Shown piece by piece: positions 4,221 to 55,774 of a DNA stretch of 64,000 nucleotides. The DNA is taken from the NCBI GenBank assembly GCA_028703495.1, contig JAQVMT010000002.1, positions 149,177-213,176 on the forward strand, in the 5' to 3' direction. The stretch is from Clostridia bacterium. GTDB taxonomy: Bacteria > Bacillota > Clostridia > Christensenellales > CAG-314. The notes under the pieces were generated by a model. That model was not told where the DNA came from, ran no database searches, and saw only the letters and a program-made list of their open reading frames with translations. The first letter of the stretch is position 1. Every line of letters begins with the position of its first letter. Both the position numbers and the translations under genes were made by a program.

Positions 4221-6878
4221 TTATTGCCAATACAGCTTCATGCTTCCGTTCTCAATAATCCAAACGTTTTCGGAATTCTTTTTCGTATCGTCAATAGATA
4301 CAAATTCGCCGAAATGATACTCGCCGAACACCTTTTCTTTTTCAAATTCTCCGTACACTCCAACGTTTTCCACCGCATAATTTGACGATTTTTGCGGTGT
4401 GGAGATGTTGTTGCTATTGCCAAAACAATTCGGCTGCACACTGAAGCAGTCCTTAATAGTGCCTGTAGAATAGCTATTATCAGTTGTTCCCCCAAGTATT
4501 CCACCTGAATATGAGCTTACGTTTTCTGGAGTCGCGCCGAGCGTCTGCCCCCATGTTTTGGCATCTGCCCAACAATTGCTGATTGTTCCTGCGTACATTG
4601 TTCCTGCGATCCCTCCCTTAAATGCGTAACGCAGTTCGGTTTGATCGCTGATTACATACGAATACAACTCACCCATATAGTAGCAGTTTCTTACTGTTGA
4701 GCCGAATTTAATCCAACTCTCCGATGAATATGCACCGACGTATGCAATTAAACCACCTATAAAGCAATCACCTTCGGCCTTCACCGTGATAATACCAGTT
4801 GAGTAACTGTTTTCCACAAGCGAGCCGTATGTACAGCCTATCAAGCCACCCACATATCCACTGCCGCTACCACCGTTAACTGTCATTTTTATGTATTCTG
4901 CGGTGACATTCACCGTTGAATAGCAATTTCTTACAATTCCTTGGTAATTGAGATTTCCCACAAGACCGCCGAAGCATGAACGAACGCCAAATGAATTGAT
5001 GGTAAGCGACAAACTACCATCGGTATGGCAGCCCTCAATTATGGATTTACCCTTTCCTGTGGAGGACCTTGCAACTACTCCGGCAAAAGCACCGCACCAG
5101 TCACCTGTGTTACCATCGATAACAAAATTACTTACGGAACACTTATGCAACTCTGTGTCGGCATAGTTCACTCTTTCACCATTTTCGTCATATACACCCG
5201 TTAGGTTCGTGCCCCAGCTTAAAATTCTGCCCGCAAAGCCGCCACAATACACATACGGATATGATCTGTTTTCGTCCTTTATCGGTGTTTTTATGGTCAC
5301 GCCCTCGATTATAAGGTCGTTAGCATAGCCATTGAAGGTGTCAAACAATCCACAGAAAACAGTCGACGTTTGATTAGGATTATCCGCAAAGTAATTTGAA
5401 TAATCGATTGTGACATTCTTTACTTTATGGTTATTGCCTGCAATAACGCCATAGAACACCTGCGGAATCCACTCAACGCCCATAAGATCAATATCCGCCT
5501 CCAATAGAACACACTTCAGCCCTCGGCTCTGTTCGCCGATCTTTGCAAATTCTTCCTGTGTATAGATAGCCGAAATGCTCCATCTATCCGCGTCTATCGT
5601 GGCGCAACGCGTAGGTAGCCAAGTTGCATAAAGCTTGCAATCGCTGTATATGCTTGCGTAAGAATCCCTAAATTTGTCGGTACTCTGCACCAAAACGTCA
5701 TTGTATTTGGTCTTCCATCCGTAAAAAATAAAGCCTTCACGCGAAGGCGTAGGGAGCGGACGATCTGCGCCCTCTTCGATAAGAAGCTCGGTTTCATCAA
5801 GAGGGTCCCCACCATTTACATCGAGGGTTACTTTGTATAATGGTAAAGGGATAGCAAATGAAGCGTAGTATGTTCCGTCATTTTCAATAGTAACGACGAA
5901 GGTATAAACAGAAAGCTTCGACACCTCATTTCCATTGCCGTCATACCAGCATTCAAAGGTGTAGCCTTCCTTTGCTGTTGCGGTGAGCGTCACAGTGTCG
6001 CCTATGCGGTACATTCCGCCGCCCGATACGGTACCTCTTACGGTGTCGCAATACACCGCAATCTCACCCTCTGCCAAGGTACTATCCTTGGTTAGAGTAA
6101 GTGTAAATATGCCGTTAATTTGCTCAAGCGAAATGCCTATTGTGTCGGAGGTTCTCATCCAGAAATACATTCCCTCGCCATAACTACCTACAAAGTCTAC
6201 CATAGACAGCGATGCCCCAACCTCTGCAAGGGTCTTGCCCGCTAAAAAAACTACATCGACCGCATAGTATACTCCGCCTTCAAGCTCGCCGACACGCGCG
6301 TTGGAGAATTCCGCAATTAAACAGTTGTCCCCAAACGAAAAAGAGTTCATGCCAATAAATTCTGCAATAGCAGCTTCAACTCCCTCTCGAGAGCTGTCTA
6401 AGCCTTCCACCGCTTCAACCACTGCAAAAAAGGAAAAACTGCTTGTTTCAAAGGCTATCGTTCCGTTGTTGCAGGTCGCGACTAGTTTTTCGACAACATT
6501 GTCGTCCCTGATATGGAATATAAGATAATTATTTACGCTTTCATTAGGAGCGGGCAAAGTGATCTTAACATTCCCGTTCGGCTGTACCTTGGTACCATCC
6601 TTTACAACATATATGTCATAAACGTAGTGCTTTGCTGTCTTGTCGTATTCCTGCATTGCCAGAGCGGTTATAACCTCGGCTACCGTTTCTGCTTTGCCGA
6701 CTGTGGTTGCGGATAATTCGCAGCCCTTGGAAAAACTACCACCTTCAACCGTAATGCCGTTTTTAGTCAAAGACTCAATAGTATTATTCCAATCTTTAAG
6801 ACATACCACAAGCACTATGCACGCAATAATTACCACGGCTACAGACACTATTATTAAACTAATTTTTTTATTACTCAT
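4221..6878 (-). CDS. Large membrane-anchored extracellular protein with InlB-type and GLUG repeats
   Basis: This is an 885-residue surface protein. After MSNKK comes one N-terminal hydrophobic segment (about residues 5-27), probably an uncleaved anchor or signal. An extracellular beta-rich domain follows to about residue 240. Then come two InlB B-repeat-like modules, the first with AKEGYTFECWYDG and the second with PSREGFIFYGW and a closing LYATW. The long C-terminal half has repeated GLUG-type signatures (GGFAGR, GGLVGNL, GGLIGCTYGS, GGIAGT) typical of beta-solenoid adhesins. There is no LPXTG or other C-terminal anchor. The start at 6878 is supported by TGAGG upstream; an in-frame ATG 15 codons earlier has no SD. 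Adhesion is inferred from the domains only. Confidence 0.85.
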   Translation of the reverse strand: MSNKKISLIIVSVAVVIIACIVLVVCLKDWNNTIESLTKNGITVEGGSFSKGCELSATTVGKAETVAEVITALAMQEYDKTAKHYVYDIYVVKDGTKVQPNGNVKITLPAPNESVNNYLIFHIRDDNVVEKLVATCNNGTIAFETSSFSFFAVVEAVEGLDSSREGVEAAIAEFIGMNSFSFGDNCLIAEFSNARVGELEGGVYYAVDVVFLAGKTLAEVGASLSMVDFVGSYGEGMYFWMRTSDTIGISLEQINGIFTLTLTKDSTLAEGEIAVYCDTVRGTVSGGGMYRIGDTVTLTATAKEGYTFECWYDGNGNEVSKLSVYTFVVTIENDGTYYASFAIPLPLYKVTLDVNGGDPLDETELLIEEGADRPLPTPSREGFIFYGWKTKYNDVLVQSTDKFRDSYASIYSDCKLYATWLPTRCATIDADRWSISAIYTQEEFAKIGEQSRGLKCVLLEADIDLMGVEWIPQVFYGVIAGNNHKVKNVTIDYSNYFADNPNQTSTVFCGLFDTFNGYANDLIIEGVTIKTPIKDENRSYPYVYCGGFAGRILSWGTNLTGVYDENGERVNYADTELHKCSVSNFVIDGNTGDWCGAFAGVVARSSTGKGKSIIEGCHTDGSLSLTINSFGVRSCFGGLVGNLNYQGIVRNCYSTVNVTAEYIKMTVNGGSGSGYVGGLIGCTYGSLVENSYSTGIITVKAEGDCFIGGLIAYVGAYSSESWIKFGSTVRNCYYMGELYSYVISDQTELRYAFKGGIAGTMYAGTISNCWADAKTWGQTLGATPENVSSYSGGILGGTTDNSYSTGTIKDCFSVQPNCFGNSNNISTPQKSSNYAVENVGVYGEFEKEKVFGEYHFGEFVSIDDTKKNSENVWIIENGSMKLYWQ

Positions 6879-7235
6879 TTTTTCAGCCTCACTTATTATC
6901 AAATGAAAATGACACTTGATCAATTTTTTATCTTAATTAGAGCAGATATATCTTAACCAAAAGCGTTATGTCCAACATAGCAGAAAACTTGAACGATGAA
7001 AACTATACTTTTTTTACGATGTACGTCGGTCAATACAATTACTCATCTATTAAAAGTCAATAATTATTACCAACAACATATTGCGAAGTTTACCGATTAG
7101 GCATGTAAAATAAAACAACCCACCGAGTAAATTCTACTAGTTTTTTATGTGTCCGCAATGCTTTAGTTTCTTGTCGCGCTACCGATTAAGATACATTCAA
7201 AGAATTTTAGTATAAATATTAGAATTTGTATATGC

Positions 7236-7282
7236 CGTAAGTGCGCCAATATCGAAAAATTTGAGGTCGTAAGTGCGCCAAT
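7236..7282. repeat. 15-bp direct repeat, two copies
   Basis: CGTAAGTGCGCCAAT occurs at 7236-7250 and again at 7268-7282, 32 bases apart start to start. No function can be assigned. Confidence 0.7.
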
Positions 7283-7393
7283 TGAAATTTAAGCATATAA
7301 TAATGCCTTCTTGTGCTTTACCGTTTTCTTATTACAGTTTACTATTCTCAAATTGAAACTAATCCTCCCCGAAAAACATTGGCATTTTCGCGG

Positions 7394-7426
7394 TAAAAAA
7401 AGCTCGTACGAAACCGGTACGAGCTT
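7394..7426 (-). terminator. Rho-independent terminator after the lipoprotein pseudogenes
   Basis: A ten-base stem AAGCTCGTAC/GTACGAGCTT (7400-7426) is followed on the minus strand by seven T. It lies about 180 bases downstream of the last lipoprotein stop. Confidence 0.8.
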
Positions 7427-7607
7427 GAGCAAAAATAACAAACCTTAATAAACTTACGTTAATAAACTGCTTTATATTCCACCTGCATAGAAGTTGGGAG
7501 AAAAAGCACCGATCAAGGTATATTAGACTACGTTAAGTTTGGCACACGAAAGTATCAATATTAAGTGTTCAGCTTGTAAAACTCACATTTTTGGCAGTTA
7601 CTTTGCA

Positions 7608-8393
7608 TTACAACAAAATATAATTTGCTATGCAATAGTCTATAATAGCCTGCTCATATTCTGCATCAAATTCGGTTTCTCCGTCGTTATAGATAAACTG
7701 CACGCGAAATAATGTGGTTTGCTTGTGCTCGCTCTGCTTATCCTCGGGAATCTCAAAGTATATTCTAATGGATCTTGCATCAAAGAGTTGCTCAGGAAGC
7801 TGTGCGAGTTCCGCCGACATTTGCTCCATTTCACCCTCTTTTTGAATGTTGTACTTAATCACTTTATCCTTAAATACTTCGTCGACTACTCCACAGTAGT
7901 ACGACAGGTATTCAAGATAAACCACCTCGTATTCATATCCTTCGGTGCTAACCTCTCACGAATACTTCGGAAGATCCGAACAATATGATTGTATCAAAAC
8001 GAACTGCATGGTCGAATTTTCGACATGATAAATATCTGTTATCGAAGACACCCTTCCTTCACTACAATCGGGACGATTTGCATCCATAGTTTTGGTGTTC
8101 GCCATTGGAATTTTGGATATTAGCATACTGAAAGTGCCGACACCGACACCCTCCAAACGCCCCAAGTCAATAAGTGGATAGCAATATGCCCATTCCTCGC
8201 CATCGGCGGTGTAATTATCTCGGATGCCGTCAACCTTGTCTCTTAGACATTCGAATCTGCTTTCATATGTAGTATAAAATAAGTTGACATCTGTGGGTAT
8301 ATCCCAAAGATTGTTGATACAGCTGACTAAGTTGGGCAATAAAACAACAATCGAAGTAAATACGGCAATAAAAGTAATAAATTTCTTATTCAT
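7608..8393 (-). pseudogene. Lipoprotein gene broken by one in-frame TGA (paralogue of the upstream gene)
   Basis: One reading frame runs from ATG 8393 (preceded by GGAGG) to 7608 and is interrupted once, by TGA at 7956-7958. The N-terminal product has a signal peptide with lipobox LVSC and about 145 residues. After the stop the same frame continues for 115 codons with no further stop. The second part (CGVVDEVF ... EFDAEYEQAIIDYC) aligns with the C-terminus of the preceding gene (CGTVNEVF ... TFDVELEQAVIEFC). Across the stop the two proteins align without gaps, with Phe in the paralogue at the TGA position. A nonsense mutation is the simplest reading. The family is unknown; an extracytoplasmic lipoprotein is inferred. 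Confidence 0.75.
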
Positions 8394-14201: not shown

Positions 14202-14612
14202 TTATTTGTTCAGCATTTCTCGAATTTTATTTCTTACCGAGGAGACCTGTTCACTATCTTTTCTCCCGAATACACATTCATTTGCAAAGTGTTCGCAGTT
14301 GTAATGTATAATGTCATAGCCGCCTTGTCCGAGCTTACTCAAGGCATAATTAACGATGTCTTCATCGCTTCGCTTGAGCTTCAACTCGGATTTCGAGTAC
14401 TGTCTAACCTCCACAAATCTACCTCCCGAAAAATCAGCAACGGAAACTTTGTCGACCGTAATATTATCCGACGGTCTTGTTACATTATCGGCGGCTCCGA
14501 ACTCAATAACCTCATCACTCCCTAAAAAAATCCCGTAATGGTAATATCCGCCCATGTTGACTCGAATTTGGGCACCCTTCTCGGCATTGGTAAGCTTCCA
14601 TTTGGTTTGCAT
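14202..14612 (-). CDS. LRAT/NlpC-like cysteine acyltransferase or hydrolase
   Basis: This is a 136-residue protein of the LRAT (H-rev107/NC) branch of the NlpC/P60 fold. The motif YYHYGIFLG places the catalytic His at 25, and HYNCEHFANE places the nucleophilic Cys at 106. The second His seen in mammalian family members is Glu here (EVIEFG). Family members hydrolyse or transfer acyl chains of phospholipids, or act as amidases. AGGAG precedes the ATG by 7 bases. It is the last gene of the lipid cluster, 156 bases after the carrier protein gene. No signal peptide is seen, so it is probably cytosolic or at the inner membrane face. Confidence 0.75.
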   Translation of the reverse strand: MQTKWKLTNAEKGAQIRVNMGGYYHYGIFLGSDEVIEFGAADNVTRPSDNITVDKVSVADFSGGRFVEVRQYSKSELKLKRSDEDIVNYALSKLGQGGYDIIHYNCEHFANECVFGRKDSEQVSSVRNKIREMLNK

Positions 14613-14768
14613 ATAAACACTCCTGACATCGTCGGCACAATTTGTCCATGGATGTACATAAAATGACGATCGATGATACTACTATCAAGAGCAATTTCCC
14701 GACTTTAACCCTGAGGCAGACACTTCGATGACTATAAAAAAAATGTCGATAAACCGCTCGTGAAAAAC

Positions 14769-15026
14769 CTAAGCCTTTTCCTTGCGATAGACATCATTCA
14801 AGTAGTTATAGACATCGCCTACTGTCTTAAAACTGTTGACGTTGAGGTTAGTCAATTCTATTTTAAACTCCTCCTCGATAGCAATCGCAAGATAAAGCAT
14901 ATTGATAGAGCTCAATCCCATATCTTGAGAAAGTGTTGTTTCTGCAGTGATTTTGTCGGGATCCAACTTCACTCCAATCACCAATTCGAATATTTTTGTT
15001 ATTTTTTCAATTACTATGTCCGACAT
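14769..15026 (-). CDS. Acyl carrier protein
   Basis: This is an 85-residue carrier with four-helix ACP spacing and the attachment motif DMGLSSI, where Ser40 should carry phosphopantetheine. It is acidic (IEEEF in helix II). AGGTGAG lies upstream of the ATG. It follows the acyl-ligase gene by 37 bases. No fatty acid synthase genes are nearby, so this is a dedicated carrier that probably works with the neighbouring ligase and acyltransferases, and not the housekeeping ACP. Confidence 0.88.
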   Translation of the reverse strand: MSDIVIEKITKIFELVIGVKLDPDKITAETTLSQDMGLSSINMLYLAIAIEEEFKIELTNLNVNSFKTVGDVYNYLNDVYRKEKA

Positions 15027-15063
15027 ATTATTTAATACTCACCTTTTAATATCTTATATACCA

Positions 15064-16581
15064 CTAAAAATCATTCTTTGGACGAACGATTTTCATACTT
15101 GGGCTACGAGCAAAATCTTGCGTTCGGATTTTGATATTGTCGATTTTTACGTAATTAACCGAGCCTTCGACATTTGCGACCTCACGCTTAGTATAGGTTA
15201 AAAAGTCTGTAACCCCTCTTGACTGCAATAATGCGACTTTTGGCAAAATTTCAAGAGCAAGGACAGGTTGTCCGAAGCTGTTTTTTTCCACATAGACCAA
15301 GCAGTCGGAAACAAAGTCAAGGTCGTTTACCGCTTTTTCAATTTCCTCGGGGTAGATATTCTCACCGTCGGGCATAATAATTACGTTTTTACTACGTCCA
15401 ATTATGTACAAAAAGCCCTCATCGTCGAACTTTGCTAGGTCGCCGGTTTTGAAAAATCCATCGCAAAAGGCTTTTTTGTTTTCCTCGTCATCGTTATAAT
15501 AGCCCGACATAATGTTCTCGCCTTTGAGCCAAAGCTCCCCATCAACAAGCTTCAATTCCTGCAACGGGAAGGGAATACCGACAGAATCGGGTTTTTTTAC
15601 GAATTCGGGATTACCGCTCACCAAATTAGAGCTTTCCGTAAGTCCGTAGCCCGGGTAGAGACTAACTCCCAATTTGTAATACCCCATTACAAGGTTTTTG
15701 GGAACGACTGCACCACCGCAAATAATTACTTTCAATGAACCTCCGGTTGCGGTGATGCCGGACGATTCGCAAACTCTTAATATCAGTGCTGCAAGAGCAG
15801 GTACAAGCACGAGAATGTCGGGTTTTACTACTGCCATTTCCTTGAACATAGCTTGCATGTTTTGAGCAAAGTACAGACTTCCTCCGGATATAAGGCAGGT
15901 TAGTAAGTTCCTTATTAGACCGAAAACATGAGTCATCGGCATTAAGGAGTAATATGTCAAGCCGAAGGGTTGGACAATTCCGTAAAGTCCGTTGACTGCG
16001 CCTACAAGAAGGTTATTATGCGAAAGGACCGCTCCTTTGGGCTTGCCCGTCGTTCCCCCCGTTAAGATGATGCAAGCAGGCGTGAACCTATCAAGTACGG
16101 GCAGGTGTGCGTTATCCTTACCGATGCATTCATTTGATGCAAAAAACGGTATAGAAAGCAAATTATGGGCAAATCCGACTTTTTCCTTCAGTTCCTCTTG
16201 ATAAATTAATGCTTGGCAGTCAAATTTTAGTAATAACCCGTAAAGGCTTTTTTCATCAAGCATAGGAGGAATTAAAACGGCTACCCTGCCGCTTGCCATA
16301 ACCGAAAGAGCAATCCTCACAAACTCGCAATTATTGCCAATGAAAATTCCGATGTTCTTCTTACCAAGATTATTCTCGTCTAAAAATCCGACAGTATTGC
16401 ATACTGCATCGTATAATTTGGCGTAGGTTAAAGCTTTGGTGTCGAAAACTGCAACCTTGTCCGAATAATCGCGTTTTCCGACCTCAAGCATCTCGCCTAT
16501 GGTTCTTATATGATTTTTTTCTTCGACTTTTGCATATACGCAGTCGCTTGTTTCCTTCCTAAAGCGTTCGATCGAATTCAT
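15064..16581 (-). CDS. AMP-binding acyl-CoA/acyl-ACP synthetase
   Basis: This is a 505-residue ANL-superfamily adenylating enzyme. Motifs seen are the P-loop TGGTTGKPKG near 175, YGLTES near 325, FKTGDLAKF near 385, GRSKNVIIMPDGENIYPEEIE in the hinge, and the C-terminal catalytic Lys in SMKIVR near the end. It should activate a carboxylic acid with ATP and load it onto a thiol; the next gene, an ACP, is the obvious acceptor. AGGAGGAG lies upstream of the ATG. Chain specificity cannot be read. It corresponds to the ligase half of E. coli Aas. Confidence 0.9.
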   Translation of the reverse strand: MNSIERFRKETSDCVYAKVEEKNHIRTIGEMLEVGKRDYSDKVAVFDTKALTYAKLYDAVCNTVGFLDENNLGKKNIGIFIGNNCEFVRIALSVMASGRVAVLIPPMLDEKSLYGLLLKFDCQALIYQEELKEKVGFAHNLLSIPFFASNECIGKDNAHLPVLDRFTPACIILTGGTTGKPKGAVLSHNNLLVGAVNGLYGIVQPFGLTYYSLMPMTHVFGLIRNLLTCLISGGSLYFAQNMQAMFKEMAVVKPDILVLVPALAALILRVCESSGITATGGSLKVIICGGAVVPKNLVMGYYKLGVSLYPGYGLTESSNLVSGNPEFVKKPDSVGIPFPLQELKLVDGELWLKGENIMSGYYNDDEENKKAFCDGFFKTGDLAKFDDEGFLYIIGRSKNVIIMPDGENIYPEEIEKAVNDLDFVSDCLVYVEKNSFGQPVLALEILPKVALLQSRGVTDFLTYTKREVANVEGSVNYVKIDNIKIRTQDFARSPSMKIVRPKNDF

Positions 16582-16664
16582 TTGACTCCTCCTGTTGAAT
16601 AATTGTATGCGTCCAAAATCAGACGGCTTTTTATAATAACTCCGCGCGTTTCAAGTAGCGATAA

Positions 16665-17300
16665 TCAGTCGATAAGGCTTTTTAATATATTCTCTTTCTC
16701 GTACAATACGCGTCCTATCTGCTCAATCTCTTTTCCCGTAGGCATTCTGCCCGCAATATATTTTTGGCAATCGATAGGCTCACCGATTGCGACCTTACGC
16801 TTCTTACCTTTATGCGCTTCATCAATATAAAAGGGTGTGATAGGGACCTTCGCCATAGCAGCCATAAGTATGCAGCCCGATTTAAACGGAGCGATATCGT
16901 TGGTTTTATTTAATGCTCCCTCGGGAAAAACAACGAGAAGTTCGTCATTTTTCAACACTTCGATACCCTTTTTCACCGCTTCGAAGTCGAATATATTTCT
17001 GTCGATTCTAATACAGCCCAAGCCGCGCATCAATGTCGATCGAAAAGGCTTGTTCATAACCGATTCTGCAACGAAGTATCTTAACCGTCTTCGCCAAAGT
17101 GCAACAGATATCACTATCGGATCCTTAAAGGTCCTGTGATTTGATATGACAACTGCTCCGCCTTTAATCAACAAATTGCTTTTTTTACCATTCTCGTAAT
17201 ACTTTTTCGTTTGGTAAAACAGCAGAAAAAACATTCCGCAAACTCTTGCAATATCACCTGCGAACTTCCGCAGGGAATATCCTTTCTTTTCCTTTCTCAT
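16665..17300 (-). CDS. PlsC-type lysophospholipid acyltransferase
   Basis: This is a 211-residue membrane-associated acyltransferase with the NHRTFKD motif (Asn54-Asp60) and the FPEG motif at 125-128. A hydrophobic N-terminal stretch at about 20-30 could anchor it. It should transfer an acyl group to a lysolipid or glycerol-phosphate acceptor. Its start overlaps the end of the upstream paralogous acyltransferase by 47 bases, with AAAGG as the likely SD, so the pair is translationally coupled. Confidence 0.9.
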   Translation of the reverse strand: MRKEKKGYSLRKFAGDIARVCGMFFLLFYQTKKYYENGKKSNLLIKGGAVVISNHRTFKDPIVISVALWRRRLRYFVAESVMNKPFRSTLMRGLGCIRIDRNIFDFEAVKKGIEVLKNDELLVVFPEGALNKTNDIAPFKSGCILMAAMAKVPITPFYIDEAHKGKKRKVAIGEPIDCQKYIAGRMPTGKEIEQIGRVLYEKENILKSLID

Positions 17301-17961
17301 TTATGCCTTTATTCTTCTTCGAGTCCGATTTGCTTTTTTTAAGGTTATCCAAGCATTTCCCAAGCTCGATTACCTTCTGCCGAGCTTTTTCCGACAGATC
17401 GAGCAAGTCGTCTTTTGACAAGCTTTGACACTCTGTCAAGTCATTTATATAGAAGCTTTCACCTATAACAACATTCACTCTTTTAAATATTCCGTAATTA
17501 CCATCGATATAAATTGGCACGATCGGAGCTTCCGATTCATCGGCAATCGTAATCAAGCTGGTTTTAAACTCATGAATCTTGCCATCGGTAGATATTTTAC
17601 TTTCAGGAAAAATACCCAAAACGCCGCCCTTGTCTAGAATTTCCACGCTCTTGCCGATGAATCCAAAGTCTGACGAAAACCTTTCGACCTTTACGCCGCC
17701 GATACATTTAAGCACAAAGCGCATAAATCTTCCCTTGTTGTAAATCACTTCCGCAATTAAAAATCTAATGTTTCGCAACGGGAACAGGAACATAATCAGC
17801 ATTAAATCCTTAATGCTTGAATGATTGGCAATGATTATTGCATTTCCGTTTAATCTTGGTTTTTTCTGCTTTTTATCGCTGCGCCAAATCTTCCATTTAA
17901 AATATGGAATAGCTGCAAACGCACCTGTAATTTTTATAAAAGCATATGTAAACCAATTCAT
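17254..17961 (-). CDS. PlsC-type lysophospholipid acyltransferase (second paralogue)
   Basis: This is a 235-residue acyltransferase with NHSSIKD (Asn46-Asp52) and FPESK in place of FPEG near 117. The N-terminus has a hydrophobic segment followed by a very basic linker. The C-terminal 40 residues are Lys/Asp rich. Two acyltransferases side by side suggest different acceptor positions or acceptors. It starts 43 bases after the transporter gene, with AAGG 9 bases before ATG. Confidence 0.88.
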   Translation of the reverse strand: MNWFTYAFIKITGAFAAIPYFKWKIWRSDKKQKKPRLNGNAIIIANHSSIKDLMLIMFLFPLRNIRFLIAEVIYNKGRFMRFVLKCIGGVKVERFSSDFGFIGKSVEILDKGGVLGIFPESKISTDGKIHEFKTSLITIADESEAPIVPIYIDGNYGIFKRVNVVIGESFYINDLTECQSLSKDDLLDLSEKARQKVIELGKCLDNLKKSKSDSKKNKGINEKGKERIFPAEVRR

Positions 17962-18004
17962 ATTCTTAAGCCTTCTGTGATCTTGTCTTACCTTTGTTAC
18001 CGGC

Positions 18005-19837
18005 TTATGCTACCGTAATGCCTGCTTCCGCATTTGCCTTTTCTTTGCATTCTAGCGCATACACCTCGGCGAATCTGTTCAAGTCCTTTTGATAAAGGAT
18101 GCAAACAAAGAAGTGTAGGAACAAACAGCAAAGAATGAAATAAAGAATTGATTTGTCTTTAATTTCGATGTTCTTCTCTTTGCCTTTTTCTACTGCAAGC
18201 TTTGCGTTCTTATAAAACCAAAACGCGGCGAAAAATGGTATGAAAGACATCAAAAGCCAATCAACAACCGCCTTCCTTTTTCGTTCAAACAACAACCTGC
18301 TCTTATTTGCGATGGTTGCAAGCCATATGAACACGAAAAGGAATCCTGACAATATCGAAAGAACGATATTTACAAAAATCGTTTCCTTCTCGAAAAGAGG
18401 CTTGTACTCGACTGTTGCATCCGGCTTGTCGATGTGGTTTTGAAGCTTTAACGCCTTAGCGACGGCAGCAGTAGTATAATCCTTGGGCATCAAGAAACAG
18501 AGGAAGAATCCCCCTATGCAGAAAATCGACACAATCAACGGCACAAGAGAAACGCCGCATTTGATCGCACCCTCCGCGACCACACCGTTCACCACCGCAT
18601 CCTTCGTCCACATTTTAAGATTCTCATAGACCAAACCGCTTGACACGGCTCCTACAATCGAAGTCAAAACAGCTTGTATCGCAAAATACATAGCGGCGTG
18701 GTTCTTACCCGTCAGCCTTTCTTCTTCGGCAGCAATCTGCGTCGGAATAAGATATGGCATCATAAAAAACGCACCGATTGCCCAGCTTCCGATAATGCCG
18801 CCGATCGCACCTATTACCAGCTTTGGCAAATAGCTGTCGCCCCAGAAATAGCTTCCCGCAAAATTGAAACACAATATGCATAAACCAAAGCTCAAAAGAC
18901 AGGATTGATACGTAAATCTTATTCCCTTCTTCTTTTTAAGCTTGTTAAACAAGTAAAGCATCATTGGAACGGGAGCAAAAGCAAAGGTATTCAAAATCGC
19001 CGCGCTTCCCGCACCCAATCCCATAACACCCGAAATCAAGGTGTTCTGCGCAGTTAAAAACATTTGCAGTCCGAAAAATGCGCAACAGTTTGGCAACATC
19101 CAACGCATAAACATTTTGTTGCCAAGCGTAAGCTTGAGGCTTTCCCAAAAGCCTACCCGCTTTTCGTTTTCAGCTTTTGCCGTGGTGTACTTGGCACCCT
19201 CTTTAATGAGAAACAGAGGGATTATCATTGTAACCATTAGCGGAATACAATACAAAGCAAGCTTGTCGATGCTTAAGTTGAGCAATCTAAGCATTGCAGG
19301 CAAAAGCGCGTAAACGACACAGTAGCTTATTGTATCGAAAAAGGACTTATAACTAGACACTCTAAGTCTTTGTCCTTCATCCGTGCATACGGTTGACAAA
19401 CTGCCGTAGAAGGCAATTAGGCACATGGTGTAAGCCGCAAAAAACACGACTGCCCAGCATATAATCCATGCAGTATTTCCCGCTTGCGAGAATGAAGGAA
19501 GCCATAATAAAAAGTAGCTTATTACCATCGGCAGAAAGGCGATTGCTATCGGAGTTCTGCGCCTTCCGAATTTGGATTTAATACTATCCGTCAAGCTCGC
19601 AAGAGGCACGTCAATAATACCGTCGAATGCTTTTGCCGCAGTCCAAAGGATACTGAACAAAGGCATCACGACCAACACTTTTCCGTTGATGCTCCAAAGG
19701 TTGATGTCCGCCGCCAGCCCGACGGGGTTTACCGCATCGGTAAAGTACGCAACCAATAATACCATCAAAAGATTCGGACCGAATCCTGACATTGCAAAAA
19801 CGATTTCCTTCCATTTTTTGTCTAAACTTCTTACCAC
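18005..19837 (-). CDS. GPH/MelB-like MFS transporter with extra C-terminal membrane region
   Basis: This is a 610-residue membrane protein. The first 480 residues look like the glycoside-pentoside-hexuronide branch of the MFS, with the loop motif KSKFGRRRTPIAI near residue 85 and twelve predicted helices. This branch includes sugar symporters and the animal lysolipid carrier MFSD2A. The last 120 residues add about three hydrophobic segments not usual for MelB. The start is GTG with a GGCGG-like site, and no better start is visible nearby. Placement between an acyl-ligase and two acyltransferases argues for a lysolipid or lipid-precursor substrate and not sugar, but that is inference. Confidence 0.85.
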   Translation of the reverse strand: MVRSLDKKWKEIVFAMSGFGPNLLMVLLVAYFTDAVNPVGLAADINLWSINGKVLVVMPLFSILWTAAKAFDGIIDVPLASLTDSIKSKFGRRRTPIAIAFLPMVISYFLLWLPSFSQAGNTAWIICWAVVFFAAYTMCLIAFYGSLSTVCTDEGQRLRVSSYKSFFDTISYCVVYALLPAMLRLLNLSIDKLALYCIPLMVTMIIPLFLIKEGAKYTTAKAENEKRVGFWESLKLTLGNKMFMRWMLPNCCAFFGLQMFLTAQNTLISGVMGLGAGSAAILNTFAFAPVPMMLYLFNKLKKKKGIRFTYQSCLLSFGLCILCFNFAGSYFWGDSYLPKLVIGAIGGIIGSWAIGAFFMMPYLIPTQIAAEEERLTGKNHAAMYFAIQAVLTSIVGAVSSGLVYENLKMWTKDAVVNGVVAEGAIKCGVSLVPLIVSIFCIGGFFLCFLMPKDYTTAAVAKALKLQNHIDKPDATVEYKPLFEKETIFVNIVLSILSGFLFVFIWLATIANKSRLLFERKRKAVVDWLLMSFIPFFAAFWFYKNAKLAVEKGKEKNIEIKDKSILYFILCCLFLHFFVCILYQKDLNRFAEVYALECKEKANAEAGITVA

Positions 19838-20095
19838 CCTGTATTACCGCCTTTTGTGTTTTGATACTAATACCTTTTGCCTTCTCACGCTATAACCGAG
19901 GATAACACTTATAACTACTTTGAATCGTTATTTCGGTTCATACATTGCTCTACTAATTTTATACCGATTTACGAATAGCTAATGATGCTAGAAGCAATAA
20001 GGCATAAAACAGGAAAGCCGTCCAAATTGATCAATAACTTGGCTTTTGCATATATCGTTATTAGGCAATTACTCTAATTCGAGAGCTGTGGATCT

Positions 20096-22036
20096 CTACA
20101 CATTGTTGCATATAAACTCACAAAACTCGTCTACGGTATAGTTGATTCTGTAATCAAGTCGTGCGAGTGTGACGCCGAATTCTTTTTCTATGAGGTTCAA
20201 AAGAGTAAAATACTCCAAACTATTTCCACCCAAATCCTGCACAAAGTAAGCGTTGCTTGCTATCTCATTTTCTGGTTTTCCCAAAACCTCTGCAAACAGC
20301 TTCACTAATACGCATCGAATCTCATCCCGACCATCCGTTCCCTTATCGATATTTTCGTTTCTATACTCCGAAAACGGTATCAAGCGCACTTTACCGCTTT
20401 CAATCCATTTGAGTAGTTGCTTTCTTCCCGGTTTGATCGCGTTTTTAAGCGCAGTCGAATCGTTCGTGAAGAAAATCTTTTCCACCATATACAGCTTCGG
20501 AAGCGCATTGTTTTGCTTGATAATCTGAGCTTTTAATTTTTGTATCTGCAAATCGTACAATTTGCTGCTGACTTCAACAATCAAACAAAGCGAGGTTTGT
20601 TTATTGTCACTCAATCCCAATACCGTGAAGTTTTTGGCATAGTCCAACTCGAAAGCATTTTCCACAACATCCGGACTGATATTCTCGCCTGTTTGAGAAA
20701 TAACCACGTCCGAGCTTCGTCCTTCGATGTAGTAACGACCGCTTTGGTCACTGTTCGCAATATCGCCCGTAATATAGTAGCCATCCTCGGTAAAGCTTTC
20801 CGTGGCGTTGGAATAGATATGCTTACACAAGGTACTACCCTTAACCGCTAGTATTCGCTTACCCTTAACGTTTACAAGCTTATAAGAAACGGTTTGAAGC
20901 GGTTTCCCCACAGAGTTAAGATTCCTGACTTTGGGAGATTTGCTTAATTCCACCGATGTAATACCGATTTCCGTCATTCCGTATCCGTTATAAAGCGGAA
21001 TCCCTATTCCGTTTAAAAGATATAGCGCATCCTCGCTCAAATAACTGCCACCCGAAATGCAAAAGCGTACCGAATTCCCGAATAGCTTAGAATGAACTTC
21101 CTTGAAAGCACGTCTTGCCAATGGCTCGAATAATTGAGCACATAATCCCTGCAATAAGGTAAAAAGCTTCACGCTTTTGTAAAACCGCTTAACTGTCTTG
21201 GCATCTCTTTGAAATATTTGCTTTTTAAGCTCTTTTGCCATGCTGTTCCAGAGTAATGGTGTCGCAAAAATATGCGTAACCCCGTGTTTGCGACAGGTTT
21301 GCATAATAGTATCGCCGCTGTAATCCTTCAAAAATACAAAAGTTCTTCCAAAAAACCCAAACCACAAGAGATTTGTCATTAAACCGAATATATGATAAAA
21401 GGGTAAAAATGCCAACAACTTAATGCAGCCGTTATAATGTTGCTTAAATCGATTGTTTTGCCTTAAAATATCTTTGCTTGTCAATATTTGTTCGCAAATT
21501 TCGTTGCCGCAATAGACGCAAAGCTTTATATCCAAGCTAGTCCCCGAGGACATTAACGCCAATTCGTCCGCCCATGCACCGCTATAACCATAGGGAGCAA
21601 TCTCCTTGAGATTGTCGACGGATAAGCCTTTCTTCCCGTATTGCTCTCCGTTACCGATTATGTAATTTACACTAACCTTATTAAGTGCGCTACAAATGAC
21701 CGCCGGAATCAAGCGGGTATTTATCAGCAAAGGCTTGAAGCCAGCCATCAAAATGCCCCAAAAACACCAAATCCACTCGGGAGAGTTATCCAAAGCAAGT
21801 CCAATAAAACTACCCTTTTCTTCGTGTTCAAGCAACCGCTCCAGCGAATACGCGCAAGAAACGCTACTATCCTTAATTTTTCTATATGAAAACCTGATAG
21901 TATGAAAACCGTCGGTTGACTCGGTCATCGTATTATCCGGCATATCGAACATTATCTCAAAAACATCTTGAAACCGTCGCTTGCTTTTAATCAGCTTCGA
22001 AATCTGCATATTGACGGTCTTATCGAGATTCTCCAT
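20096..22036 (-). CDS. ANL acyl-activating enzyme fused to a C-terminal acyl carrier domain
   Basis: This is a 646-residue fusion. Residues 1 to about 540 are an AMP-binding enzyme: YNGYGMTEIG near 340, YYITGDIA near 420, and GRSSDVVISQTGENISPD in the hinge. The phosphate loop is degenerate (SSGTSLDIK) but keeps the Lys. A linker leads to a carrier domain at about 570-646 with DLGGNSLEYF, Ser606 being the phosphopantetheine site. It can therefore activate an acid and hold it on itself. It is the first gene of the lipid cluster. GCGGAG precedes the ATG by about 9 bases. Domain order resembles a minimal NRPS/PKS loading module, which is the main alternative. Confidence 0.88.
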   Translation of the reverse strand: MENLDKTVNMQISKLIKSKRRFQDVFEIMFDMPDNTMTESTDGFHTIRFSYRKIKDSSVSCAYSLERLLEHEEKGSFIGLALDNSPEWIWCFWGILMAGFKPLLINTRLIPAVICSALNKVSVNYIIGNGEQYGKKGLSVDNLKEIAPYGYSGAWADELALMSSGTSLDIKLCVYCGNEICEQILTSKDILRQNNRFKQHYNGCIKLLAFLPFYHIFGLMTNLLWFGFFGRTFVFLKDYSGDTIMQTCRKHGVTHIFATPLLWNSMAKELKKQIFQRDAKTVKRFYKSVKLFTLLQGLCAQLFEPLARRAFKEVHSKLFGNSVRFCISGGSYLSEDALYLLNGIGIPLYNGYGMTEIGITSVELSKSPKVRNLNSVGKPLQTVSYKLVNVKGKRILAVKGSTLCKHIYSNATESFTEDGYYITGDIANSDQSGRYYIEGRSSDVVISQTGENISPDVVENAFELDYAKNFTVLGLSDNKQTSLCLIVEVSSKLYDLQIQKLKAQIIKQNNALPKLYMVEKIFFTNDSTALKNAIKPGRKQLLKWIESGKVRLIPFSEYRNENIDKGTDGRDEIRCVLVKLFAEVLGKPENEIASNAYFVQDLGGNSLEYFTLLNLIEKEFGVTLARLDYRINYTVDEFCEFICNNV

Positions 22037-22562
22037 TAACGCAACTCCGCATTGTTTTCGGCGGAAACTCCCTTTTGCTCTGCTATTTCGTATAAGATAT
22101 CCTATTTTTTACAATATTATGACATCTGCAAATATTTTACAATATTCGACACCTTTTGTCAACCATTATGTAGTCAACACGCAAATTATCATTATGCAAA
22201 AGGTATGGAATATTAACCAATCAGATCTTTCTTATTATATCTGTGCAAATATGCGACCGATAGCCGTACGTATACAATATACGAATATTACAACCATGAA
22301 TTGTTGCCATAATAGGCTAGCGGTAGTTGCGGAATATTGGCTTATAAGACGTCATAGCCACACCCAATAAGGAATATCATCGGTATAACGGCAACTAGAA
22401 GTTTATTTTCCAAATTAAAACTATAAGCATAGCGCAAATGATTTGCGTGTGCCGTTGTCGCAATTATGTCGGTAAGCCGACAAAGAAACAACAAAGCTTA
22501 ACAGATACATTAAGCATATGATCTTTAAAGTCGGAAAAGGGCACATGCAGTTCGCTTAATAC
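22037..22562. other. Intergenic region upstream of the lipid cluster
   Basis: No gene is seen. It holds two copies of an operator-like repeat (22107-22151) upstream of the ANL-carrier fusion. The remaining sequence to 22562 is AT-rich without a clear hairpin. Confidence 0.55.
22107..22151 (-). promoter_or_regulatory. Duplicated operator-like motif upstream of the lipid cluster
   Basis: AATATTGTAAAA (minus strand) occurs at 22107-22118 and 22135-22146, each preceded on the minus strand by TGTC one or two bases away. The period is 28 bases and the copies lie 70-115 bases before the ANL-carrier ATG. This looks like a pair of regulator-binding sites; the regulator is unknown. Confidence 0.4.
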
Positions 22563-25803: not shown

Positions 25804-26928
25804 TCAATATCCTAAAAGGGGTTGATCGTATTCGAACAAGGCTTCGTTTATCTCGAAAATATCGTATTTTTTGTTGATAATAAAATACTCGACAATTACA
25901 TCGAATTGCTTAGCGTGTGATAGCGCATACCCTGCCTGAGTAAGCAATGCTTGTGTTTCCGAAAGATTCAGCTTTAATGCTATTGCCAGTGCCAAAACCG
26001 TGCGTTTACTCGGAGTGTAATCCTTTTGAGTTTTAATTTTGGAAAAGAGCTTGCGATCAATGTTGGCTTTCTTATAAACATTGGTTTCCTTCGCGCCCTT
26101 CTGATCGATTAGCCAAATCAAAGTCACAGCGAATGGCTCGTCCATGCTTTCTATAGTCTCCGCAAGCGACATCGAACGGCTGTGCGGCATACTATCTAGT
26201 TGTGACTTAGAAGTATATGCATCGAATATAACCTTGTTTTCAACAGATTCCGACCTATCGGAGAAAACTTCGTCGGTAGATGACAATTCCTTCAACGCAG
26301 ATGGTTTTGCTCTTATTTTAATGTTTTCGACAGAATGCCTCTTCAACAGCTTACCTTGAGAATAGGGGCAATAACTCATCTGAAGATTGGGTTCTTGGTC
26401 AAGCAATTGATTCAAGTATTCCTTTACGCCTGCAATCAAAGGCTTGTCTGCTTCAAAGCTCGATTTATCCAAGAAGGTCAAGTACACGTCCATATCGCAC
26501 GATTGCAGAAATTCATTTATCGCGGTTACGGCGACTTCTAACGCTTCTCCCTTAGGATAGCCGTAGATTCCCCCAGAAATCAAGGGAAATGCCACGCTCT
26601 CGCAGCTGTTCTCATGTGCTAGTCGCAAGGACTCAATATAAGCCGAGCGCAGTAGTCTTCGGCAGTTTTCTGCATCCTGATAGCTATACATAGGACCAAC
26701 CGCATGAATTATGTACTTACTCGGTAGGTTGAATCCCGAAGTAATCGCTGCCATTCCCGTTTCTACCGGCGCAATTTTATGACAAGCCGCACTTAGCTCA
26801 TCGGCTCCCGCCGCTTCGAATATTGCACCGCAAACGCCTCCCCCCATCGTCAAATACGCGTTGGCTGCGTTAACAATGGCATCAACTTTTATAGTGGTTA
26901 TGTTCTTGCATACAAAATAAAAGGGCAT
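25804..26928 (-). CDS. Macro-domain (ADP-ribose hydrolase-like) protein with C-terminal HTH domain
   Basis: This is a 374-residue two-domain protein. Residues 1-170 are a macro domain with NAANAYLTMGGGVCGAIF near 24, VGPMYSYQDAENC and LISGGIYGYPKG near 130, as in MacroD/YmdB de-ADP-ribosylating or O-acetyl-ADP-ribose deacetylating enzymes. A 100-residue linker follows. Residues about 265-374 form a helical HTH-like region (TPSKRTVLALAIALKLNLSE, ending YDIFEINEALF). The ATG at 26928 follows GGAGG. The combination suggests an ADP-ribose-responsive nucleic-acid or protein-binding role. Activity is inferred from motifs only. Confidence 0.88.
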   Translation of the reverse strand: MPFYFVCKNITTIKVDAIVNAANAYLTMGGGVCGAIFEAAGADELSAACHKIAPVETGMAAITSGFNLPSKYIIHAVGPMYSYQDAENCRRLLRSAYIESLRLAHENSCESVAFPLISGGIYGYPKGEALEVAVTAINEFLQSCDMDVYLTFLDKSSFEADKPLIAGVKEYLNQLLDQEPNLQMSYCPYSQGKLLKRHSVENIKIRAKPSALKELSSTDEVFSDRSESVENKVIFDAYTSKSQLDSMPHSRSMSLAETIESMDEPFAVTLIWLIDQKGAKETNVYKKANIDRKLFSKIKTQKDYTPSKRTVLALAIALKLNLSETQALLTQAGYALSHAKQFDVIVEYFIINKKYDIFEINEALFEYDQPLLGY

Positions 26929-27229
26929 TATTTCCTCCGTAAAAAAGGACGACAAGTCGAAAAGTCATTTATTTCAATTCGCCCATAATAATCTCTAATA
27001 AATTATTAAGCAAACGAGTCAAAACTCCTTTTTTATGTCGTCCAATTTATTTTTTTCGATATACTTGTTTCGAAATGTGCATATCGAAAGTATTCAGTAC
27101 TGCCCGACGAATAAATACCCTCAAAGCCAAATAGATTATGGCTTGATTCAATTTTCGCGAACCTTTAGTTTTACTAAAGGCTATTCGTCCGATAATCGCA
27201 TTTACTTTTTCTTCGTCCGATAATCGCAT
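26929..27229. other. Intergenic region with a tandem repeat and hairpin
   Basis: Downstream of the ornithine aminotransferase. It holds the hairpin CCTTTAGT/ACTAAAGG (27162-27180) and one of two copies of a 28-bp tandem duplication. A 60-codon open frame here is built from the duplication and has no ribosome binding site. Confidence 0.6.
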
Positions 27230-54508: not shown

Positions 54509-55774
54509 CTATTTTAGTTGCATCACCGCTCGCATAGCTCCGGCAAAATTCAGATTATCTCCGCCGATAAAGGTAAATTTGATGTCTTTATTTGATAAAA
54601 AGGCAGATAAATAGCCCTCTATATACCCGATCAAGCCTTCCATTTTAAAGAAGGTTGTTCCCTCGACAATGATAGCAAATTCCTTTCGATTATCCTTTGC
54701 GCGATGCAAAATTATCGATGCTAATACAATAGCAGCGATTTTAGCAGCACGCTTTATTACCGAAAAGCATATACTCTTTGCCGATTTTACGTCGGTGTCG
54801 GAATGGAATTTTGAATACAAATTGTTCATTTCTCCGCCCAAAAAGGCGTTAACGGTTCTCGTACTGAAATCTTTGACGTTCTCGGCAAGAAGGTCGCTTG
54901 CAATAACTTTGTTTCGAGTAGCTTCTACCAACGCTCTTATGATAATCTCGCCCAAATACCTACCGCTAATCATTTTTTCCAGTGGATAGGCACCATAATT
55001 CTCCGTGTGCTCATCCAATTCTATGTCGATTATGCCTCTTTTTAATCCGTCGAAGTTCCCTGCCTCAATGTTAATTATCATACTTGTGTACTTATAATTC
55101 CCTAACGGAGCACAAATACCCTCGACGTCCTCAATGTAGCAAGCATTTACACCGGTTCCATAAATAAAACCGATATAATCGTCGTAACGCTTTCTTAGGT
55201 CGATACTTAATCCGCCTAAAAGCGTAGCAACCGTATCGTTTAAAATCGCAATTCTTCTTTTTCGCGAATCGTGCTTTGCAACCGCTTCCAGTAACGAGCA
55301 TCCGACATACTTCCCGTCAGCCCCGATTACTTTTATCTCTTTAGTGAAATTAATTAGCTTTCCATCAACGCTGTCATCCATTTCAACAGGATAGGAAAAA
55401 CAAAATCCTATGTCATCGGCGATATTGAGCGCACTTCTCATAGACCTTGCAACAGAGGAATAAAACTGCTCCGCCGTCATTTTCCTGTCGATTGCGGGCA
55501 TTCTAGTTGTATAAAGCGACTTAATCACACATCCGCTTTTTTCATAGGTAGCAACAGCGCAACGCAGGTTGCTTCCGCCCGCATCGGCAACCGCAAAGGG
55601 TTTGCCGTAGACAATCTCCGAAAATGGAGATAGGTACGACGGCAGCATTTTCAACGAAGCTTCTCCTTTAAGCCCGTTGACTATCTGCCTTCCGAAATTC
55701 CCTATTGTTTCTTCGGCGCATATGCAACTTTCACTCAACCCATACTCAATTAAAAAGTCATCCAATTGTTGCAT
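54509..55774 (-). CDS. Eukaryotic-type hexokinase family sugar kinase
   Basis: This is a 421-residue kinase of the hexokinase (not ROK or GlcK) family. FAVADAGGSNLR near 60-71 is the phosphate-1 motif; FCFSYPVEM near 124 and NFTKEIKV near 142 match the sugar-binding loops. The catalytic Asp is in LNDTVAT (D180), and GFIYGTGVNACYIE near 202 is phosphate-2. It should phosphorylate glucose or a related hexose in the cytosol. Tandem DAGG in place of DLGG is a mild change. It stands alone between copA and an exonuclease gene. Confidence 0.88.
   Translation of the reverse strand: MQQLDDFLIEYGLSESCICAEETIGNFGRQIVNGLKGEASLKMLPSYLSPFSEIVYGKPFAVADAGGSNLRCAVATYEKSGCVIKSLYTTRMPAIDRKMTAEQFYSSVARSMRSALNIADDIGFCFSYPVEMDDSVDGKLINFTKEIKVIGADGKYVGCSLLEAVAKHDSRKRRIAILNDTVATLLGGLSIDLRKRYDDYIGFIYGTGVNACYIEDVEGICAPLGNYKYTSMIINIEAGNFDGLKRGIIDIELDEHTENYGAYPLEKMISGRYLGEIIIRALVEATRNKVIASDLLAENVKDFSTRTVNAFLGGEMNNLYSKFHSDTDVKSAKSICFSVIKRAAKIAAIVLASIILHRAKDNRKEFAIIVEGTTFFKMEGLIGYIEGYLSAFLSNKDIKFTFIGGDNLNFAGAMRAVMQLK

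Follow-up and report, generated by a model that had tools for sequence, protein, structure and literature searches.

A conserved seven-gene operon of Clostridia as a candidate acyl-lipid salvage system in bacteria lacking ketoacyl synthase

An operon of seven genes, in which a transporter of the GPH superfamily lies among acid-activating enzymes, acyl carriers and acyltransferases, was found to recur in fixed order across divergent Clostridia that apparently have lost fatty-acid synthesis. It probably, though by no means certainly, serves these fatty-acid auxotrophs in acyl-lipid salvage, that is, in import, activation onto dedicated carriers and acylation, and would work much as LplT-Aas does with extra acyl-activation parts.

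Organization of the operon

The window, meaning the whole stretch of DNA analyzed here, comprises 64,000 nt of contig JAQVMT010000002.1 from a Clostridia bacterium (GCA_028703495.1). Seven same-strand genes of named families had been reported by the original prediction at positions 14202–22036, and open reading frames and Pfam matches agree with it for all of them, with every gene on the minus strand and every Pfam assignment exceeding the curated cut-off. The first gene to be transcribed (20096–22036) encodes a 646-aa ANL-ACP fusion, which is an adenylating enzyme with a C-terminal carrier domain (PF00501 AMP-binding, 1.5e-34; PF00550 PP-binding, 1.4e-8). It is followed by a 610-aa transporter of the GPH superfamily (MFS_2) that is extended at its C-terminus by ~150 aa (18005–19837; PF13347, 9e-28), PlsC acyltransferase a (17254–17961; PF01553, 2.6e-19; H47-x4-D52 and P119-E120), PlsC acyltransferase b (16665–17300; PF01553, 8.8e-24; H55-x4-D60 and P126-E127-G128), and a stand-alone ANL enzyme of 505 aa (15064–16581; PF00501, 6.3e-53; P-loop T174-GGTTG-179, K182 and K497). 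The last two genes encode an 85-aa acyl carrier protein (ACP; 14769–15026; PF00550, 8.3e-10) with S40 as the predicted phosphopantetheine site, and a 136-aa LRAT/PLAAT-like acyltransferase domain (14202–14612; PF04970, 6.7e-20) that is without a C-terminal phosphopantetheinyl transferase (PPTase) domain.

The two PlsC genes overlap by 47 bp, and the remaining intergenic gaps span 37–258 bp. A promoter-like site (TTGACA-17-TAAAAT, minus strand, 22134–22162) lies ~100 bp upstream of the first gene and agrees with the consensus at 11 of 12 positions, such matches being no evidence of function. Terminator-like sites were not more frequent than in shuffled sequence. An EamA transporter gene flanks the operon on one side and a MarR regulator and two ABC transporters on the other, none of which recurs as part of the unit in the loci of relatives. 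As originally noted, fatty-acid-synthase and NRPS genes were not seen in the region by ORF and Pfam checks, and Pfam placed no Fak gene in the operon. A link to phage was dropped because viral contigs held no relative of the ANL-ACP protein.

Conservation across relatives

A transporter-based scan with one genome per species yielded 30 loci, mainly in Clostridia assembled from ruminant gut metagenomes, together with a few Bacilli. The original prediction had singled out gene order as the property to look for in related genomes, and all seven genes were found in the same order and orientation in 13 divergent loci beyond the window (L029, L042–L045, L048, L049, L051, L056, L059–L061 and L064, the first gene of L064 being truncated by a contig end). 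Six further loci (L040, L041, L047, L052, L053 and L055) keep the order without the 505-aa ligase at that place; the ACP is missing from L055 as well, and the LRAT gene of L052 is divergent or partial. The remaining loci are cut by contig ends or, in Bacilli, reduced to ANL-ACP-GPH(-PlsC). Full-length transporters of the relatives are only 45–52% identical to the window GPH protein, so the loci are not near-copies, and with the one-strand order recurring in 13 plus six loci the seven-gene arrangement is not due to chance. Additions downstream of the unit include a membrane-anchored alpha/beta hydrolase in seven loci and one to six zinc-ribbon membrane proteins in nine. The distribution of the operon is patchy, since a close copy of the transporter occurs in 3 of the 41 genomes of the window's own family. 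An 825-aa GPH-PlsC reading frame in L037 was not counted as strong evidence, as in the closely similar locus L039, whose PlsC is 98% identical, the genes are apart and the frame may reflect an indel or assembly error.

Activating enzymes, carriers and acyltransferases

Residues expected of active enzymes are conserved throughout the set. The ANL-ACP protein, aligned with 23 relatives from this operon type and the Fak-linked type described below, has an unusual P-loop (SSGTSLDIKLC) and keeps T166, K171, E356, D425 and R440, with catalytic K535 and the carrier serine S606 invariant. The H-x4-D and PE motifs are conserved among 28 sequences of PlsC a and 25 of PlsC b, as are the P-loop and K497 of the stand-alone ANL enzyme and, among 20 sequences, D35 and S40 of the ACP. 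One more stand-alone carrier is encoded in the window's genome and is probably the housekeeping ACP.

When compared by BLASTP with E. coli Aas, the stand-alone ANL enzyme matched the synthetase half (3e-21, 26% identity over 352 columns), and PlsC a and PlsC b matched at 7e-8 and 8e-6, respectively. The window therefore shares with LplT-Aas the linkage of an MFS transporter to PlsC and to an ANL enzyme of the acyl-ACP-forming kind, with ANL and PlsC proteins detectably related to Aas. The two activities are encoded by separate genes in the window, but in one relative, L057, an ANL domain with its own ACP and two complete PlsC domains are joined in a single 1100-aa protein, directly followed by the GPH gene. 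This fusion, found in L057 only, looks like the assembled counterpart of what had been described as a disassembled Aas, and on sequence grounds it argues that the parts act together.

A sister operon linked to fatty-acid kinase

Through paralogues of the transporter, a second conserved unit was found that comprises FakB, FakA, GPH, sometimes ANL-ACP, PlsC and an alpha/beta hydrolase. Its FakB is a DegV protein, its FakA has Dak2 plus FakA-like middle and C-terminal domains, and its GPH protein is without the C-terminal extension. The unit is present in 17 loci and one split pair; L141 has no PlsC, and in L030 GPH-PlsC is divergent from FakB-FakA. The window-type operon is found as well in most genomes that have this sister operon. 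The positive-inside rule predicts that the alpha/beta hydrolase has its catalytic domain facing outward in window-type operons and inward in the Fak type, as if one enzyme were to release acyl groups outside the cell and the other after import.

Most hosts of the operon lack ketoacyl synthase

No match to ketoacyl synthase (PF00109) was found genome-wide in the window's genome, which is 92.8% complete, so that the original statement about fatty-acid-synthase genes extends, for this enzyme, beyond the region. PF00109 is absent in 37 of 41 genomes of the family, where the four matches comprise three weak partial ones and a strong one (G038), and in 29 of 31 operon carriers, the exceptions being one weak partial match and one full match (G050). 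Given that every genome is a draft assembly, an individual absence is weak evidence. In a class-wide sample, PF00109 was present in 297 of 391 genomes (24% absence); a close GPH homologue occurs in nine of these 391, of which eight are without ketoacyl synthase (Fisher p = 6e-5; p = 0.002 with high-quality genomes only). As an informal phylogenetic control, carriers in families f14, f20 and f45 are without ketoacyl synthase and other members of the same families have it, so shared ancestry alone fails to explain the link.

Genes for lipid assembly are largely kept among 39 carriers (PlsY in 37, PlsX in 33 and FakA in 38). FakA is encoded elsewhere in the window's genome, outside the operon, and PlsX was not found in this draft. 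With PlsY, PlsX and FakA kept and ketoacyl synthase missing, carriers can assemble phospholipid and seem unable to make fatty acids. Among uncultured gut bacteria, RF39 is already known to have lost fatty-acid synthesis, and fatty-acid kinase has been invoked, by analogy, to explain how such bacteria build membranes (PMC6784871). The operon is not required for this mode of life, because only 3 of 41 family genomes carry it and nearly all 41 are without ketoacyl synthase; Fak-PlsX-PlsY may meet the need of auxotrophs on their own.

A model for acyl-lipid salvage

In the salvage pathway favored here, the GPH transporter would use a cation gradient to import a single-chain lipid, most likely a lysophospholipid. 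Fatty acids, whether exogenous or released, would be adenylated by the two ANL enzymes and transferred to the two carriers of the operon; activation of these carriers would fall to the PPTase that in most relatives is fused to the LRAT protein. The two PlsC enzymes could then acylate the imported lipid from acyl-carrier to give diacyl membrane lipids, and the LRAT/PLAAT-like enzyme would most likely shift or remove acyl chains in the pool. The idea of lysophospholipid salvage put forward in the original prediction thus gains support as to function from co-conservation, Fak neighbors, hosts without ketoacyl synthase and the Aas-like chain of L057; that the substrate is a lysophospholipid, we infer. 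The accompanying term "remodelling" is probably too narrow, as in fatty-acid auxotrophs the system looks like one of membrane lipid supply.

Despite the likeness to LplT-Aas, the operon falls outside that system, since its transporter belongs to GPH (MFS_2) and not to the LplT family. Window-type operons differ further in adding their own carriers, a second ANL enzyme, a second PlsC, an LRAT domain and, in the fusion proteins of relatives, a PPTase, and their hosts are without ketoacyl synthase. The LplT-Aas lysophospholipid remodelling system is known only from Gram-negatives, and importers other than LplT are considered possible (PMC11416262); Gram-positive bacteria take up lysophospholipids by "unidentified transporters" (PMC6805115). 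The GPH protein is thus a concrete candidate for a Gram-positive lysolipid importer. The FakA-FakB pathway of Firmicutes likewise supplies phospholipid with acyl chains from outside, in the same genomes, and the sister operon joins FakA and FakB to the same transporter clade, PlsC and ANL-ACP. The window operon differs from that pathway in having no Fak gene, a dedicated transporter, and predicted adenylation onto carriers in place of phosphorylation.

The same salvage could also operate with another cargo, although this seems unlikely: the transporter would move either free fatty acid or a head group stripped of its acyl chains, for example glycerophosphocholine, and each PlsC would add one chain, so that a glycerophosphodiester and free fatty acids together yield the diacyl lipid. 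The constant pairing of two different PlsC enzymes would suit two successive acylations, and the FakA and FakB of the sister operon act on free fatty acids. A dedicated transporter is, however, not generally regarded as necessary for free fatty acids in Firmicutes. Two-step acylation of glycerophosphocholine has been proposed in streptococci, with transporters unidentified (PMC6805115), but a cation-coupled MFS transporter tied directly to acyltransferases is what the LplT-Aas analogy would lead one to expect of a lysolipid flippase (PMC11416262).

The LRAT/PLAAT-like protein and its fusion to PPTase

The LRAT protein retains H25 and C106, the latter in an NCEHF motif, both of which are invariant among relatives, and the folds nearest to its model are PLAAT2, PLAAT3 and PLAAT4 (best E 2.3e-7, HRASLS2). 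It thus resembles the LRAT/PLAAT (HRASLS) phospholipase-acyltransferases in fold, cysteine motif and first histidine. It differs at the position that we take to be that of the second histidine of the PLAAT triad, where the window protein has E37 and at least 90% of relatives have Q, as well as in its transporter-PlsC operon context and in the PPTase fusion. An identity as an NlpC/P60 peptidoglycan hydrolase is disfavored by the fold search, in which matches to that family appeared only at E > 0.3.

The LRAT protein of most relatives is longer, at ~333 aa, and has a PPTase domain at its C-terminus. This fusion is the sole PPTase detected in ~13 genomes, from which it follows that it also serves the housekeeping ACP there. 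Among genomes with the short LRAT protein, G000, G007 and G049 have a separate PPTase, and G063 gave no PPTase match. A literature search naming both domains found no description of a PLAAT-like domain paired with a PPTase, and the pairing is offered here for assay. One decidedly speculative possibility is that the fusion is a phospholipid:ACP transacylase, in which a cysteine of the PLAAT-like domain would capture, in thioester linkage, an acyl chain of an imported (lyso)phospholipid and hand it directly to a carrier activated by the protein's own PPTase domain. Fatty-acid auxotrophs would in that case obtain acyl-ACP from phospholipids of foreign origin, with no intermediate release of free fatty acid, and the supply would come through a GPH-superfamily importer of lysophospholipids in Gram-positive bacteria.

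Dedicated carriers and PPTases are common in secondary metabolism, and it is conceivable, if improbable, that the operon makes or handles a specialized acylated product (an unusual lipid, a lipid conjugate or a signal) and not bulk membrane lipid, with the GPH protein acting on the product or a precursor. Two ANL enzymes and two carriers exceed what Aas needs, and the unusual ANL-ACP P-loop and the occurrence in 3 of 41 family genomes would also fit such a role. However, the operon differs from NRPS/PKS or lipopeptide clusters in that the condensing enzyme, whether C domain or ketosynthase, is missing; condensing, tailoring and peptide-forming genes are not recurrent in or beside it, and PF00109 is absent in 29 of the 31 carriers. 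The service of the fused PPTase to the housekeeping ACP in ~13 genomes also counts against a specialized product, and the Fak-linked sister operon is hard to account for in that way.

The transporter clade

Alignment of the GPH proteins shows that the cation-site residues D72 and D76 (MelB D55 and D59) are invariant in both operon types, and that MelB D19, D124, W128, R149, W342 and K377 are replaced in every protein of both. The window transporter, which is thus without the GPH lysine (K377), shares the cation-site aspartates of MelB-type sugar symporters but has lost six of their sugar-site and lysine residues. In a tree built without MFSD2 sequences, each transporter type forms one group, and both types together with three further homologues form one group with support of 100/100. 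This clade lies apart, on a long branch, from the five E. coli GPH proteins MelB, UidB, YihO, YihP and YicJ; the clustering with sugar symporters that had been named as counting against a lipid role was thus not seen.

The description of the transporter as MFSD2-like gained no support. Its model (mean pLDDT 80) is equally close in fold to MelB (E 5.4e-9) and MFSD2A (1.3e-8), and sequence searches of the PDB, whether they started from the GPH protein alone or from a profile of one or the other GPH type, reached neither; the loss of the GPH lysine also fails to favor the description. It shares with MFSD2A, a sodium-lysolipid symporter, the GPH-superfamily fold and a conserved acidic cation site, but differs in being as near to MelB and in the missing sequence-level link in the PDB. 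The claim that it belongs to a different family from LplT was correct, with Pfam assigning MFS_2/GPH and BLASTP giving no match between LplT and the window transporter.

That the protein is a common symporter of sugars or glycosides, encoded in a lipid operon by accident, is very improbable: MFS_2 and a TIGR00792 match far below its cut-off do place it in the glycoside-pentoside-hexuronide superfamily, and its fold is as near MelB as MFSD2A, but it stands on a long separate branch, the MelB residues D124, W128, R149, W342 and K377 are all replaced, and no glycosidase or sugar kinase is recurrent beside the transporters in the loci of either operon type. Beyond the operons, L102 and L103 encode a relative, 45% identical, next to a ROK-type kinase and an amidohydrolase; this context would lend the sugar reading some support and cautions that the clade in its wider sense may be heterogeneous. 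The residue losses, as read from the alignment, speak against a melibiose-like sugar and leave room for an amphipathic ligand, with which lysolipid transport would be consistent. In two separate operons, this clade is tied to acyltransferases, acid-activating enzymes, carriers, fatty-acid kinase and hosts without ketoacyl synthase, which provides specific, testable genes and, if lysolipid import is true, suggests lysolipids as a culture supplement for such bacteria.

The GPH transporter carries a C-terminal extension in window-type operons

The GPH transporter of the window-type operon ends in a C-terminal extension of ~150 aa (window positions 18005-18430, minus strand). This extension, which is present in window-type GPH transporters and holds additional predicted helices, is absent from those of the sister, Fak-type operon, and had no match in Pfam. 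A GPH relative with 45% identity, found at locus L102 (8484-11890) and also at L103, is flanked by genes for a ROK-type kinase and an amidohydrolase. Because it sits between these two genes, its setting suggests that the substrate differs in this near clade.

Operon variants and neighboring genes

A partial window-type operon in genome G376 (L155, contig 29, 4202-8745) consists of PlsC b, ANL, ACP, LRAT-PPTase (LRAT fused to a phosphopantetheinyl transferase) and hydrolase genes, with no transporter gene adjoining; at a separate place, G376 also carries a Fak-type operon that includes a GPH gene. At L041, one of the loci without the stand-alone 505-aa ligase, a 755-aa HTH-cupin-AMP-binding fusion (5614-7878) is encoded directly before the ANL-ACP gene. 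A further PlsC-like protein, ~390-430 aa long and perhaps ending in a zinc ribbon, is encoded at L066 (6686-7975), where it adjoins ANL-ACP, and at L036 (9226-10386), where it adjoins a GPH gene. Directly downstream of the operon, three loci carry tandem arrays of three to six zinc-ribbon membrane paralogues, each ~180 aa: the full seven-gene locus L051 (13108-14708), L052 (15365-18943) and L053 (14764-17849).

Outside the operon, the window encodes on the minus strand a protein (25804-26955) in which a macro domain is followed by a C-terminal extension, and a hexokinase (54509-55774) that matches the two hexokinase domains of Pfam, PF00349 and PF03727. This two-domain type is more familiar in eukaryotes than in Clostridia.
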